Positions 59,332-64,000 of a DNA stretch of 64,000 nucleotides are shown here, piece after piece. Source of the DNA: Leptolyngbya sp. NIES-3755 (GTDB lineage Bacteria > Cyanobacteriota > Cyanobacteriia > Leptolyngbyales > Leptolyngbyaceae); the NCBI GenBank assembly GCA_001548435.1, contig AP017308.1, positions 4,163,030 to 4,227,029 of the forward strand. Reading direction: 5' to 3'. The translations under genes and the position numbers were made by a program. How positions within the stretch are numbered: position 1 is the first letter of the stretch; each line of letters begins with the position of its first letter. Under the pieces are notes generated by a model. The model was not told the DNA's origin and did not search any database. It worked only from the letters and a program-made list of their open reading frames with translations.

Positions 59332-61299
59332 ATGGTGATTGATTTTGGGCGAGAAATTTGTGGCATCTTGCCGACCTCGGAAACACGAGAATGGCTGGTC
59401 ACAAATGGCATTGGTGGATTTGCTTCTGGAACGATCGCGGGTCTCCTCACTCGTCGCTATCACGGATTATTAGTTGCAGCTTTGAAACCGCCACTCGATC
59501 GCACTTTATTAACAACAAAACTCGATGAATCGATTCGTTATGGTGAAGATGTCTATCCACTGAGTACCAATCGCTGGGCAGATGGGATCGTCGGACCGCA
59601 TGGATATCGCCAGATTGAGCGCTTTTTTCTAGATGGAACGGTTCCAGTTTGGCGCTATGCTTGCAGCGATGCTCTTTTAGAAAAACGAATCTGGATGCAG
59701 CAAGGTGAGAATACAACTTATGTACATTATCAATTACAACGAGCAACACAACCGTTAACGCTAACCTTCAAAGCATTTATTAACTATCGCGATTATCACG
59801 GTAGTACTTCGGGCAATGGATGGCAAATGGAAACGGATGCGCTCGATCATGGCTTACAAGTTTCTGCCTATCCTGAAGCGACACCCTTTTATTTATTCTG
59901 TCGGGGCGCAACTCTGACTCCATCGCACGATTGGTACTATGGATTTGATTTAGCGATCGAGCGAGAAAGAGGACTCAGCGATCGAGAAGATCATCTCCAC
60001 ATTGCAACCTTCCAAGCCACTTTATATCCAGGTCAATCGCTCACTTTTGTCACGAGCACTGAATCGAATCCGAATTTAGATGGAGAAACAGCACTACGAT
60101 CGCAGCGAAATCACGAGCAGCGATTATTCGATTGTTGGCGACTCGACCGCGTCAAACAAGTTGAAACGGCTCCTACCTGGATTCGTCAGTTAGTTCTCGC
60201 CGCAGACCAATTCATCGTCAGTCGTCCACCAAACGGTAAAACAATTATTGCGGGTTATCCCTGGTTCAGCGATTGGGGACGCGATACGATGATTAGCTTA
60301 TCAGGATTAACCCTTGCAACTGGACGGGTAGAAATTGCTCGATCGATTCTCTACACATTCGCTCAATATCTCGATCAGGGGATGCTTCCGAATCGTTTTC
60401 CTGATGCCGAAGCGATTCCTGAATATAATACCGTTGATGCTACCTTATGGTATTTCATTGCGATTCTCGATTATTACAATGCAACTGATGACCATGATGT
60501 TCTCGATGATTTATTTCCAATGTTGTCAGAAATCATTGATTGCCATTGTCGCGGAACTCGCTACAACATTCATTTAGATTCCGCAGATGGATTGCTTTAT
60601 GCAGGCGAACCAGGAACCCAATTAACCTGGATGGATGCCAAAGTTGGCGATTGGGTTGTGACTCCTCGAATTGGAAAACCGATCGAAGTCAATGCACTCT
60701 GGTACAACGCCCTCCGAATTATTGCAAAAGTCGCTCGTCGCATCGGCAAACCTTACCGCGAATATGATGCGATGGCAGAACGTGTTCTTGCCCGATTTGA
60801 ACGCTTCTGGAATCCAGACACGGGCTATTGTTTCGATGTGCTTGATACGCCAGAGGGAAATGATGCCTCATTGCGTCCGAATCAGATTTTCGCAGTGTCG
60901 CTGCCAGAAAGTCCACTCACTCAGAATCAGCAAAAAGGTGTGGTAGATGCCTGTTCTCGATCGCTGCTCACTTCTTACGGATTACGATCGCTTGATCCAC
61001 GGGATGCGAACTATCGAGGACGCTACGAAGGCAATCCCCTTCAACGCGATGGCGCTTATCACCAAGGTACGGTCTGGGGTTGGCTGATTGGGGCTTATGC
61101 GATCGCACATCATCGCGTCTATGGTGATCCAGCAAAAGCCAGAGAATTTCTTGAACCGATGGCGAATCACCTCCGCGATCAAGGTTTAGGCAGTCTCGGT
61201 GAAATCTTCGATGGAGATGCCCCAATGATGCCGCATGGATGTACTGCACAGGCTTGGACAGTCGCGGAAGTCTTGAGAGCTTGGATGTCAATCGGTTAA
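59332..61299 (+). CDS. Amylo-alpha-1,6-glucosidase/glycogen debranching-type enzyme (GDE C-terminal, GH133)
   Basis: 655 residues. The N-terminal GDE_N domain starts EWLVTNGIGGFASGTIAGLL. The (alpha/alpha)6 barrel has IIAGYPWFSDWGRDTMISLS (catalytic acid), GLLYAGEPGTQLTWMDAKVG, the KPIEVNALWYNALRI segment and GSLGEIFDGDAPMMPHGC near the end. Archaeal and bacterial homologues remove alpha-1,6 branches of glycogen. It lacks the transferase half of eukaryotic enzymes. Divergent from SPP (166-base gap). Confidence 0.9.
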   Translation: MVIDFGREICGILPTSETREWLVTNGIGGFASGTIAGLLTRRYHGLLVAALKPPLDRTLLTTKLDESIRYGEDVYPLSTNRWADGIVGPHGYRQIERFFLDGTVPVWRYACSDALLEKRIWMQQGENTTYVHYQLQRATQPLTLTFKAFINYRDYHGSTSGNGWQMETDALDHGLQVSAYPEATPFYLFCRGATLTPSHDWYYGFDLAIERERGLSDREDHLHIATFQATLYPGQSLTFVTSTESNPNLDGETALRSQRNHEQRLFDCWRLDRVKQVETAPTWIRQLVLAADQFIVSRPPNGKTIIAGYPWFSDWGRDTMISLSGLTLATGRVEIARSILYTFAQYLDQGMLPNRFPDAEAIPEYNTVDATLWYFIAILDYYNATDDHDVLDDLFPMLSEIIDCHCRGTRYNIHLDSADGLLYAGEPGTQLTWMDAKVGDWVVTPRIGKPIEVNALWYNALRIIAKVARRIGKPYREYDAMAERVLARFERFWNPDTGYCFDVLDTPEGNDASLRPNQIFAVSLPESPLTQNQQKGVVDACSRSLLTSYGLRSLDPRDANYRGRYEGNPLQRDGAYHQGTVWGWLIGAYAIAHHRVYGDPAKAREFLEPMANHLRDQGLGSLGEIFDGDAPMMPHGCTAQAWTVAEVLRAWMSIG

Positions 61300-62246
61300 T
61301 TCAGTGCAGAGAGTCGATCGATGAGAAATTGCTGGAATTCTTTAATCGAGTGAGTTGTTGCTGCTTGTTCCAGTAATTCCCCCATTAAGTCCTCATCCCA
61401 TAAGGCATTCAACGCTTCAGCTACTTCTGCTGGAACTGTTCCAAATCGAGCTGTCAGAATTCTCACAATGTATTCTCGCGCAAACTCAACTCGTTGTAGA
61501 CGGGCAATACTACCTTGATATGTATATCCCATTGATTGTTCTGCCTCAAAACGATTCAATTCTGCTTTGTACTCTAAGTCTAATTTAGGCGGAAGCGACA
61601 TCATACGATCGATCAAATCTGTAATCAGAGTAATATCGTTTCTCTGATACCCAGTCTGATAGAGACGTTTAATCAAGGCTAGTTTCCATCGCAATCGCCC
61701 TGGCAAATCTTGTGTTGTTGCCTGCGTTTTCAAGTGAGCCATCACGAAAGAAGCAAACGGATTTTGGCTTTGCTCTAGTTCGTTCCATCGCTCTAGGTAA
61801 TCCAATAATTTAACGATCGGAAATTGGAGACTGAGCCGACAGCCTCATTTTTCGTAAGCATACTCTTGAGGTTTCCAAGTTCGATTGTTATCACCTAGAA
61901 GTGCAAGACTCACAGCTTGTCGATCGTAGCGATCAAAGATTCGATAATGGTAAGAGAACATTCGTTTGGCAAACTCAGCATCGACTTGGCTCTGAATCTC
62001 TAAATGGATTAGCAGCCAAGTTTCTTTGCCATCAAGCAACCAAACTTTGATCAGCTTGTCAACGTATCGCTTGCTTACTTCGGATTCTTTTGCGAGTTGT
62101 GCAAGTTCTTGATCAAGAAATGTGAATCCTCTTTGCTTGTCGATATCAGTGTGAATTTGGGGAAAGAAGAATTCTAGAAAGTCATAAAGATATTGCTCTA
62201 CGCCTCCCTTCCAAGCTGCATCATAATCCGCTCGAACTTCAGCCAC
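61296..62246 (-). pseudogene. Rpn-family/cytosolic PD-(D/E)XK-like protein broken by one in-frame TGA
   Basis: Two frames, 61845-62246 (133 residues, MAEVRADYDAAWKGGVEQYL, LLIHLEIQSQVDAEFAKRMF) and 61296-61805 (169 residues, NELEQSQNPFASFVMAHLKT), lie in the same reading frame. Between them the minus strand reads YAYEK-stop-GCRLSLQFPIVKL then LDYLERW, the sequence expected for an uninterrupted protein with a Trp (TGG) at the TGA (61845-61847). A single base change thus split a 316-residue gene. The N-terminal half carries the Rpn/transposase_31-like domain. Readthrough or independent translation of the halves cannot be excluded. Confidence 0.85.
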
Positions 62247-62366
62247 ACGTTAGACCTGAATTAATTTAGTGCGATTGTACCATAATGTGCTTGTTTAGCA
62301 CTCATCGGTCTTTGGGAAAGCTCTCAACAACAGAGCGATCGCTATTTAGAAAAGACTGTTGTGAAT

Positions 62367-64000
62367 ATGGCTAAAATCAATCGTGCTTGCGAGTTTGCTG
62401 AGCTTGTTGGTAACAGTGACTATGGTTGGAGACTTCTTCTGGGGAAAATGGTCACACACTACAGATTGGGACAAGGAAGAGTAAATTCGTGGAACTACCA
62501 AGACTTGGAGATAGGCATTTATTATGAAATTTCTAGCGGTAGCCGATATGTTAGATATGAAAAAACAAGGTTCTCTCAAGAATTTATAGAAATAAACCCA
62601 TCAGTTTATTTATCAGAAATAGAAGAAGCTCTACAAACTGAACAAAAGCAAGAAATAAAGCAACTTGCTAGACAAGAAGCACAGAGACAAGAAGCAGCGA
62701 GGCGCGAGCTTGAAAGACAAGAAGCGGTGAAACGACAGGCGTGTAAACTGACACTACTTCAAATCTTGAGAAGACAGCTTGAATCTAACTTTTTGAATAC
62801 TTATCATTTCTATAAAACTGCTTGCTCCCAGTACATCACTGAAGAAGAATATCAGGCTGAGAAAGTGCGGTTTGTTCGATCGTGGTTTAAGCAACACTTC
62901 GATTTTGAGCCTGATGTTGAACAAGCTGACGCGATCGCGTCAGTTGAAAATCATGTACAAGTTATCGCTCGTGCAGGCAGTGGAAAAACTTCAACGTTGG
63001 TCAATCGAGCTTTATTTCTACAGAAACACTGCGGAGTTTCACCAGATGAAATGCTACTTCTAGCGTTCAATCGTGATGCAGTTGGAGAAATTCGCACTCG
63101 TATCACGCAGAAACTTCAAGGTTCTATTCCTCATGTCATGACATTTCACGCATTAGCTTATCGAGTTGTTCAGCCTGAAGGAAATCTTCTTTATGATGAG
63201 GCTAACGGCGTACAGAGTAGAAGTCGCCTGATGCAAGAAGACGTGATCGCAAGCTTTGTACAAAATCCGAAATACCATGAGCAAATTCGCGCTCTAATGA
63301 TGGCGCGATTTCGACAAGATTGGGAACAGCTTGAGTCCAGTGGTTACAACAAGAATCCACAGGAAATGTTGCAGTATCGTCGATCGCTTATTGCAGAGGC
63401 GATTGATGGAACTTTCGTAAAATCATACGGCGAGAAAGTGATTGCAAACTTCCTGTTCGAGCATGGAATTGAGTATCACTATGAGTATACTTTCAAGTGG
63501 GAAGGTAGAAATTATCGCCCTGATTTCACGCTAAAGCAAAACAAAATTATCATTGAATATTTTGGACTTCAAGGCGATCCAGATTACGATGAACTATCAA
63601 ATCAAAAGAGAAAATATTGGCGAGATAGACCTAATTGGAAACTTCTAGAATTTACTCCAGAGATTTTGCGATATGAAGGCGAAGAAGTATTTTGTGAGCG
63701 ATTGAAGCAATCCCTTGAAAGATGTGACATCAGGTGTGAGCGCTTGAGTGAAGAAGAAATTTGGAAAAGAATTAAAGCTTGCCCCATCACCCGTTTTACT
63801 CAGGTTGTTGTAGGATTCGTCCAACGCTGTCGCAAACTTTCTCTAACTCCAGCGCAATTAGCAGAGAAAATTCAAGCCTATTCAAGTATTAGTTTGATTG
63901 AGAAGCAGTTTTTAGAATTAGTGCAAATTTTTTATAAAGCCTATCTAGAAAGACTCCAAGTGACAGGCGATGAGGACTTTGATGGACTAATGCAAAATGC
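62367..64000 (+). CDS. Superfamily 1 UvrD-like helicase with coiled coil and nuclease-like insert (partial, runs off right edge)
   Basis: I translated the plus strand from ATG 62367 (in frame with GTG 62361); the frame stays open to base 64000, at least 544 residues. The N-terminal ~90 residues are unique; a charged coiled coil follows (QLARQEAQRQEAARRELERQ). Walker A is ARAGSGKTST at about 201-210, then LLLAFNRDAVGEIRTRI and VMTFHALAYRVV (motifs Ia/Ib). Residues about 355-420 form an insert with a restriction-endonuclease-like pattern (YRPDFTLKQNKIIIEYFG: PD then E-x-x-G). The DEAD-like motif II lies beyond the edge or near GDEDFDGL. A DNA-repair or defence role is possible. Confidence 0.85.
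   Translation, partial: MAKINRACEFAELVGNSDYGWRLLLGKMVTHYRLGQGRVNSWNYQDLEIGIYYEISSGSRYVRYEKTRFSQEFIEINPSVYLSEIEEALQTEQKQEIKQLARQEAQRQEAARRELERQEAVKRQACKLTLLQILRRQLESNFLNTYHFYKTACSQYITEEEYQAEKVRFVRSWFKQHFDFEPDVEQADAIASVENHVQVIARAGSGKTSTLVNRALFLQKHCGVSPDEMLLLAFNRDAVGEIRTRITQKLQGSIPHVMTFHALAYRVVQPEGNLLYDEANGVQSRSRLMQEDVIASFVQNPKYHEQIRALMMARFRQDWEQLESSGYNKNPQEMLQYRRSLIAEAIDGTFVKSYGEKVIANFLFEHGIEYHYEYTFKWEGRNYRPDFTLKQNKIIIEYFGLQGDPDYDELSNQKRKYWRDRPNWKLLEFTPEILRYEGEEVFCERLKQSLERCDIRCERLSEEEIWKRIKACPITRFTQVVVGFVQRCRKLSLTPAQLAEKIQAYSSISLIEKQFLELVQIFYKAYLERLQVTGDEDFDGLMQN

Follow-up and report, generated by a model that had tools for sequence, protein, structure and literature searches.

A helicase IV-like protein of Leptolyngbya sp. 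NIES-3755 with a predicted Vsr-like nuclease inside its motor: a candidate single-gene defence factor

Introduction

Bacterial immunity includes a growing class of single-chain nuclease-helicases, and a gene at the right-hand edge of a stretch of the Leptolyngbya sp. NIES-3755 genome raises the question of whether it encodes one of them or an ordinary repair enzyme. The stretch that was analyzed (64,000 nucleotides, here called the window) lies at C1:4163030-4227029 in its own genome, and the gene is an open frame on the plus strand at 62361..64000 that is cut by the window edge. An earlier note on this DNA, made from the letters of the window, had read the frame as an SF1 helicase carrying a nuclease-like insert and had linked it to phage defence.

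Results

The complete gene comprises 2,877 bases with its stop codon and reaches 1,237 bases past the window edge (L002:91-2967 in the longer stretch taken from its own genome). Its product has 958 residues if translation starts at the GTG at 62361, or 956 if it starts at the in-frame ATG two codons 3' of it, at 62367. Pfam matched both the UvrD/Rep helicase N-terminal domain (UvrD-helicase, 7.9e-37) and the UvrD C-terminal domain; because the former, a model of 271 positions, is stretched across residues 187-629, the domain contains extra sequence. The N-terminal 137 and C-terminal 125 residues gave nothing above threshold in Pfam. DNA helicase IV was the best NCBIfam match (205.6 bits), as it was the best named family for the nine relatives that were scanned. 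The Walker A region, ARAGSGKT (residues 203-210, 62967..62990, plus strand), is invariant from R204 to T210 in 20 aligned sequences (alignment A1) and nearly so at A203, and the SF1 motifs line up across the same alignment. Judged by its sequence, the protein belongs to the UvrD-type SF1 helicases, and among these DNA helicase IV is the closest.

Ahead of the motor lie a region without a Pfam match (residues about 1-83, 62361..62609, plus strand), kept in several cyanobacterial relatives and absent or different in others, and a charged, E/R/K/Q-rich helix (residues about 84-135, 62610..62765, plus strand) whose length is very variable among relatives. The earlier note had described an unusual coiled coil here. 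The charged helix is present, but under an E/K/R/Q-rich criterion the run measures 56 residues in the window protein and 190 in Trichocoleus and was not found in Phormidium or many other relatives, so that "unusual coiled coil" overstates the feature. A coiled coil as a hallmark of the family was rejected because many relatives have no charged run, and the segment looks like a variable linker.

The insert that the note had recognized by its YRPDF and IIIEYFG motifs lies between TFHA and DEYQD, at the 1B position of the motor, and is about 130 residues long (residues 335-462, 63363..63746, plus strand). Of 24 insert-bearing rows, 23 have a TFH-to-DEYQD spacing of 310-334 aa and the remaining one (L017) has 383, as against 162 in two helicase IV rows (L056 and L059) and 138 in the UvrD-type helicase of the window's own genome (L006, named by motif). 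The candidate active-site residues are E358, P387-D388-F389, E399, Y409, and K416. In alignment A1, E358, P387, F389, E399, and Y409 are invariant, and D388, K416, and R417 are present in at least 90% of the 20 sequences. None of the corresponding E, P, D, F, E, and Y residues varies, and the K/R position hardly does, in 22 aligned inserts from cyanobacteria, Bacillota, Pseudomonadota, Myxococcota, Armatimonadota, Bacteroidota, a haloarchaeon, and viral contigs. Outside that set stands L038 (genome G161), in which the helicase motifs are kept and the nuclease PD has turned into PS (L038:9221-9628); with its motor motifs intact and the PD aspartate gone, this copy suggests that the motor may persist without the cutter. 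The classical lysine position of the (D/E)XK motif is occupied by F, W, Y, or L in the aligned rows, and K416, in the next helix, may replace that lysine.

An AF2 model of the insert alone (63363-63746), the structure prediction that the note had proposed, was built from 14 aligned sequences and reached a pLDDT of 90.6. Foldseek against the PDB gave no match for it at E≤0.001, and its best row, at 3.6e-3, was the catalytic domain of I-Bth0305I. When the Foldseek list was re-examined with VIA-align 2, this domain again came first (Z 11.5, 95 aligned residues, rmsd 2.6), followed by two T. gondii mitoribosome chains (Z 11.3 and 10.7) and, in fourth place, by Vsr (Z 10.2, 109 aligned residues, rmsd 2.6); further down came another Vsr row and a Neisseria endonuclease-like protein (both Z 9.6), Bax1 (Z 8.4), and, from row 8, values of 8.1 or less. 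Upx (9wuf) was considered as a relative and dropped, as it appeared solely as a low structural row (Z 5.6) and the literature gave nothing useful. In Pfam, DUF559 scored 13.9 bits on the insert (E 0.05; gathering threshold 20.6), and the Vsr model matched the insert of L035 alone, at 13.6 bits against a threshold of 27. The Phormidium orthologue L009, modelled over its full length (pLDDT 79.8), had UvrD and PcrA as its best matches, with Rep, AddA, and AdnB chains ranking lower. We read the insert, on the strength of its model, as a Vsr-like PD-(D/E)XK fold; the predicted fold, the conserved active-site residues, and the position of the insert together back the note's proposal of a nuclease and a helicase on a single chain.

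A profile of the nuclease (A5) matched 16 of 385 other genomes of the phylum, in architectures that are partly different. Among these matches are cyanobacterial frames that equal PDC-S68 in size, with 1,219-1,272 aa (L097, L098, and L101), and others of just 273-354 aa (L094-L096 and L100). Since the matching frames differ in size, the domain seems to be common to several architectures.

The nuclease-helicase protein as a whole is rarer. It was found at E≤1e-40 in 2 of 38 other relatives, neither of them one of the seven genus mates included in the 38, and at E≤1e-60 in 8 of the 385 other genomes searched in the phylum, a frequency at which a universal cyanobacterial repair gene was rejected. 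Three of the eight copies are damaged, by an in-frame stop (G100), a split frame (G159), or loss of the nuclease part (G183). A search of genome contigs returned 18 loci. Four are cyanobacterial, the best being Trichocoleus at 60% identity; seven are non-cyanobacterial and bear the insert (Chromatiaceae, Armatimonadota, a deltaproteobacterium, two Paenibacillus, a clostridium, and Saccharibacteria); the other seven, also from Saccharibacteria, have frames of 479-551 aa that showed no insert motif. Relatives also occur among Myxococcota and on plasmids. The gene is accessory and patchily distributed.

Some of these copies travel on mobile DNA, as would be expected of a factor that serves plasmids or prophages in their competition or replication and not the defence of the host. 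On a 20-kb Anabaena plasmid a full-length copy adjoins a tyrosine integrase, 74 plasmid records match the protein (one with 80% or more of the query covered), and insert-bearing copies lie on three contigs classed as viral (L052, L054, and L055). At least five cyanobacterial copies, however, that of the window included, sit on contigs of 3.6 to 7.2 Mb, and just 5 of 50,697 phage records matched at 1e-10, all of them short and unannotated; we regard service to mobile elements as quite improbable.

In its own genome the gene follows a Rpn/transposase-like gene (named by sequence) on the minus strand at 61296..62246, which is interrupted by one in-frame stop, as the note's mention of a broken Rpn gene had indicated. 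This gene falls largely within the same strain-specific stretch as the nuclease-helicase gene and is no part of its system; a second Rpn-like fragment, also named by sequence, lies past the window edge at L002:8560-8934 on the minus strand. When the locus was compared with eight stretches that represent six of its seven genus mates, about 4.1 kb (61514-65662 in window coordinates) had no match. The left neighbour occurs in all eight genomes of the genus and the right-hand Mnh subunit in five of the eight, their own genome being counted in both cases, and in G006 and G002 the two are on one contig, megabases apart. To the right of the gene follow an SGNH hydrolase, Mnh antiporter subunits, zds, and pyrE (all identified from sequence). 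The note had taken the helicase for the entrance to an accessory region; with a flank that is housekeeping-like, the locus is a small strain-specific insertion and not an island. The note had also held that plain housekeeping downstream, together with orthologues universal in cyanobacteria, would mean ordinary DNA repair. The first of these is what lies to the right and the second does not hold (8 of 385), so the note's idea is not refuted in this way.

The G+C content of the gene is 41.8%, whereas the window as a whole has 47.2% and its lowest step of equal size 42.5%; the low value counts in favour of an accessory, horizontally moving gene. Together with the decayed neighbour and the broken copies in G100, G159, and G183, this low value could be the mark of a decayed or vestigial gene without function, yet the copy in the window is an intact 958-codon frame with both helicase and nuclease motifs conserved, and we consider a vestigial gene very improbable.

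Partner genes beside the helicase, which the note had proposed to look for, did not appear: no conserved partner was found across 24 loci, some of them on short contigs, with frames of at least 60 aa considered. A two-gene system with a fixed partner is unsupported. The sole neighbour family beside three copies is a short ORF (L036, L039, and L042), and other shared neighbours join two loci each. Just upstream of two of these copies there is a small gene pair that reads as a PIN-type toxin-antitoxin (L039:8441-9015 and L042:7499-8202), and the short member alone was seen just upstream of the third (L036:7988-8284, minus strand).

Among cyanobacteria, neighbour scans covered, in part, 7 of 14 loci besides the window (L007, L008, L037, L040, L041, L042, and L044). 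The neighbours were mostly housekeeping-like, with kinases, peptidases, hisA, ruvB, a release-factor gene, a Clp ATPase, and SMC. At L041, a cysteine desulfurase matches the SspA and DndA models equally and an SMC protein matches the mad3 and LmuB models; in our judgement both are ordinary genes. From this look, the cyanobacterial copies appear to be solo.

Neighbourhoods of a different kind were seen outside the cyanobacteria, where defence matches occurred at three of the seven insert-bearing genome loci (L010, L014, and L015). None was obtained at L013 (three proteins, PADLOC) or L017 (one protein, Pfam), the scan having covered five of the seven loci (all but L011 and L016). In a Chromatiaceae MAG (L010), Cmr6 and Cas10-like genes lie two frames downstream of the relative, which is possibly a type III CRISPR accessory; the order at L010:273-8852 is the relative, an overlapping frame and another frame, both without a Pfam match, and then the Cmr6- and Cas10-like genes. 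In Paenibacillus L014 a PDC-S68 gene adjoins the relative, and the P. timonensis locus has PDC-M26A plus a PDDEXK_7/DUF2357 protein.

Matching plasmid records from more distant sources, 13 of which were inspected out of 73, had defence-type genes in 7 cases by annotation reading, two of them also by PADLOC; presence of the insert was checked in 7 of the 13. A Tenderia plasmid copy has SspC beside it, plus a cysteine desulfurase related to that of L041. MkoA and SIR2 (Mokosh) were found at the Mesorhizobium locus, a DUF262 pair at that of Paenisporosarcina, a restriction endonuclease and an FtsK protein at that of Hymenobacter, and PLD plus AAA genes at that of Aminobacter. On Acinetobacter and Shinella plasmids, multiubiquitin/ThiF genes are near the relative, with an AbiEii-type toxin as well in Shinella; a sigma factor or response regulator and a second, longer UvrD helicase are also nearby (L046:276-7026 and L110:10181-18007), and this multiubiquitin-ThiF-UvrD neighbourhood is a possible larger system. 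No clear defence genes were seen by annotation reading in the Halomonas, Halalkaliarchaeum, Polaromonas, Ensifer, Piscinibacter, and Halorhabdus records, the HNH and MazF-type genes of Halalkaliarchaeum being left out of the defence count. These are raw counts and plasmids are generally defence-rich, so that the defence genes near distant relatives are suggestive only.

Alternatively, the protein might perform ordinary but accessory DNA repair, as a helicase IV variant that trims flaps, gaps, or recombination intermediates of its own or plasmid DNA; defence islands would then gather the gene solely because mobile DNA carries it. The closest named family, helicase IV, is near-universal in E. 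coli (matched in 5374 of 5426 genomes), Vsr is a repair nuclease, and ruvB, hisA, release-factor, and Clp genes are among the scanned cyanobacterial neighbours. The gene is, however, missing from most of the 385 genomes of the phylum that were searched, three of its eight other copies there are broken, its relatives extend to distant phyla, and the distant ones lie near several unrelated defence systems. We regard accessory repair as unlikely, though it is an alternative to be taken seriously.

The history of the family was examined with a tree of 36 helicases for which the motor columns were used and the insert was left out. The window protein groups with other insert-bearing rows (99/94), separate from the helD group. 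In that group, of ten rows (99/98), the insert-bearing L054 is the sister (100/98) of three rows, those of E. coli helicase IV and two of its close relatives, and the seven rows other than these three all bear the insert. Two Saccharibacteria proteins that lack the insert fall together with L017 (100/98), which has it. An arrangement that keeps the 29 insert-bearing rows as one group, apart from helicase IV and the UvrD-type rows, was rejected (p-AU 0.0044, and 0.005 when the longest row was removed), the group tested having been named after the first tree was viewed. The two UvrD-type outgroup rows are long, do not fall together, and do not form one side of any branch; the tree also contains few sequences without the insert, because the query carried it. 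Within these limits of the tree, the nesting of helicase IV among nuclease-bearing relatives suggests that the lineage leading to E. coli helicase IV lost its nuclease; the simplest reading would be two such losses, this one among them.

Discussion

The nuclease-helicase reading of the earlier note is well supported, its accessory reading was right despite the ordinary surroundings of the gene, and a role in defence is likely as far as sequence can tell. The account that we favour, and hold to be on balance probable, is that of an accessory, horizontally moving single-chain nuclease-helicase, with a helicase IV-type SF1 motor and a Vsr-like nuclease in its 1B position, that would attack phage, plasmid, or damaged DNA. 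Its role would probably be anti-phage or foreign-DNA defence, a reading adopted because of the defence genes near several distant relatives. Catalysis, polarity, substrate, and the defence role itself are what we infer.

The protein would load on single-stranded or broken DNA and translocate along the single strand, driven by ATP, presumably 3' to 5' as in the SF1 family. In UvrD-like enzymes 1B lies over the incoming duplex, so a cutter at this position would be held at the junction of single- and double-stranded DNA; given the place of the insert, cutting may occur at or near that junction, and the strand that is opened would be cut or degraded. Phage, plasmid, or damaged DNA, such as replicating or broken foreign DNA, would be the target, with an outcome comparable to that of the single-gene systems Nhi and Hna.

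To our knowledge, the role of E. coli helicase IV is still unclear. A wider proposal, which we put forward tentatively and would not yet favour, is that a widespread single-gene immune family was built on helicase IV with a Vsr-like nuclease within 1B, and that E. coli helicase IV could be its domesticated, nuclease-less descendant. DNA helicase IV itself (E. coli helD, PRK11054/NF008276) shares the SF1 UvrD-like motor with the window protein and nests with insert-bearing relatives on the tree, whereas E. coli HelD has no nuclease insert and no counterpart for residues 320-405, and the 205.6 bits of the window protein fall under the curated cut-off of the NF008276 equivalog (543 bits). RecB and AddA gave 75.1 and 70.2 bits against cut-offs of 696 and 708, and the nuclease of the window protein is internal, not C-terminal. 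The Vsr, I-Bth0305I, and DUF559 nucleases, which are stand-alone or homing enzymes, have the same predicted fold as the insert, which scores below the Pfam cut-offs.

Of the defence systems, PDC-S68 shares the nuclease domain: in PADLOC, positions 1092-1180 of its 1,221-position model match residues 337-422 at 1.4e-13, and these residues only, with no full-length match. PDC-S68 is a RecD-like helicase of about 1,220 aa with its nuclease near the end, not inside a UvrD-type core. The top PADLOC matches of the window protein were to GajB (114 bits or less, over the core; best 25 of 49 families), and there was no dedicated model for the nuclease-helicase among the 25 of 49 matches listed. Gabija consists of GajA and GajB. 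GajB is likewise a UvrD-like helicase, but the window protein has its nuclease in the same chain and no adjacent partner, its adjoining genes, both named by sequence, being the broken Rpn-like one and one that resembles SGNH hydrolases. Gabija was rejected, since the GajB matches cover the generic core and no GajA partner is adjacent.

We found no description of a helicase IV-type protein with an internal nuclease in the open-licence literature, and the accessible portions of PMC10910872, PMC10853773, PMC12839542, PMC3710099, PMC3702460, PMC13381803, PMC8655204, PMC2292703, and PMC12904381 do not describe this architecture. In Gram-positive HelD, an RNA polymerase recycling factor, the SF1 core carries a lineage-specific 1B structure (PMC8655204); there 1B is a clamp arm that enters RNA polymerase, whereas in the window protein it is a predicted nuclease with conserved active-site residues. 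Nhi, which is called a single-gene nuclease-helicase in PMC12904381, by that description resembles the window protein in having helicase and nuclease on one chain. Hna confers single-gene immunity through an SF2 DinG-like helicase with a C-terminal PD-(D/E)XK nuclease (PMC13381803). Hna and the window protein would both be one-chain combinations of a helicase and a PD-(D/E)XK nuclease, but that of the window is SF1 and has the nuclease inside its motor, which would make it a new architecture for nuclease-helicases, one that places the cutter probably at the point of strand separation.
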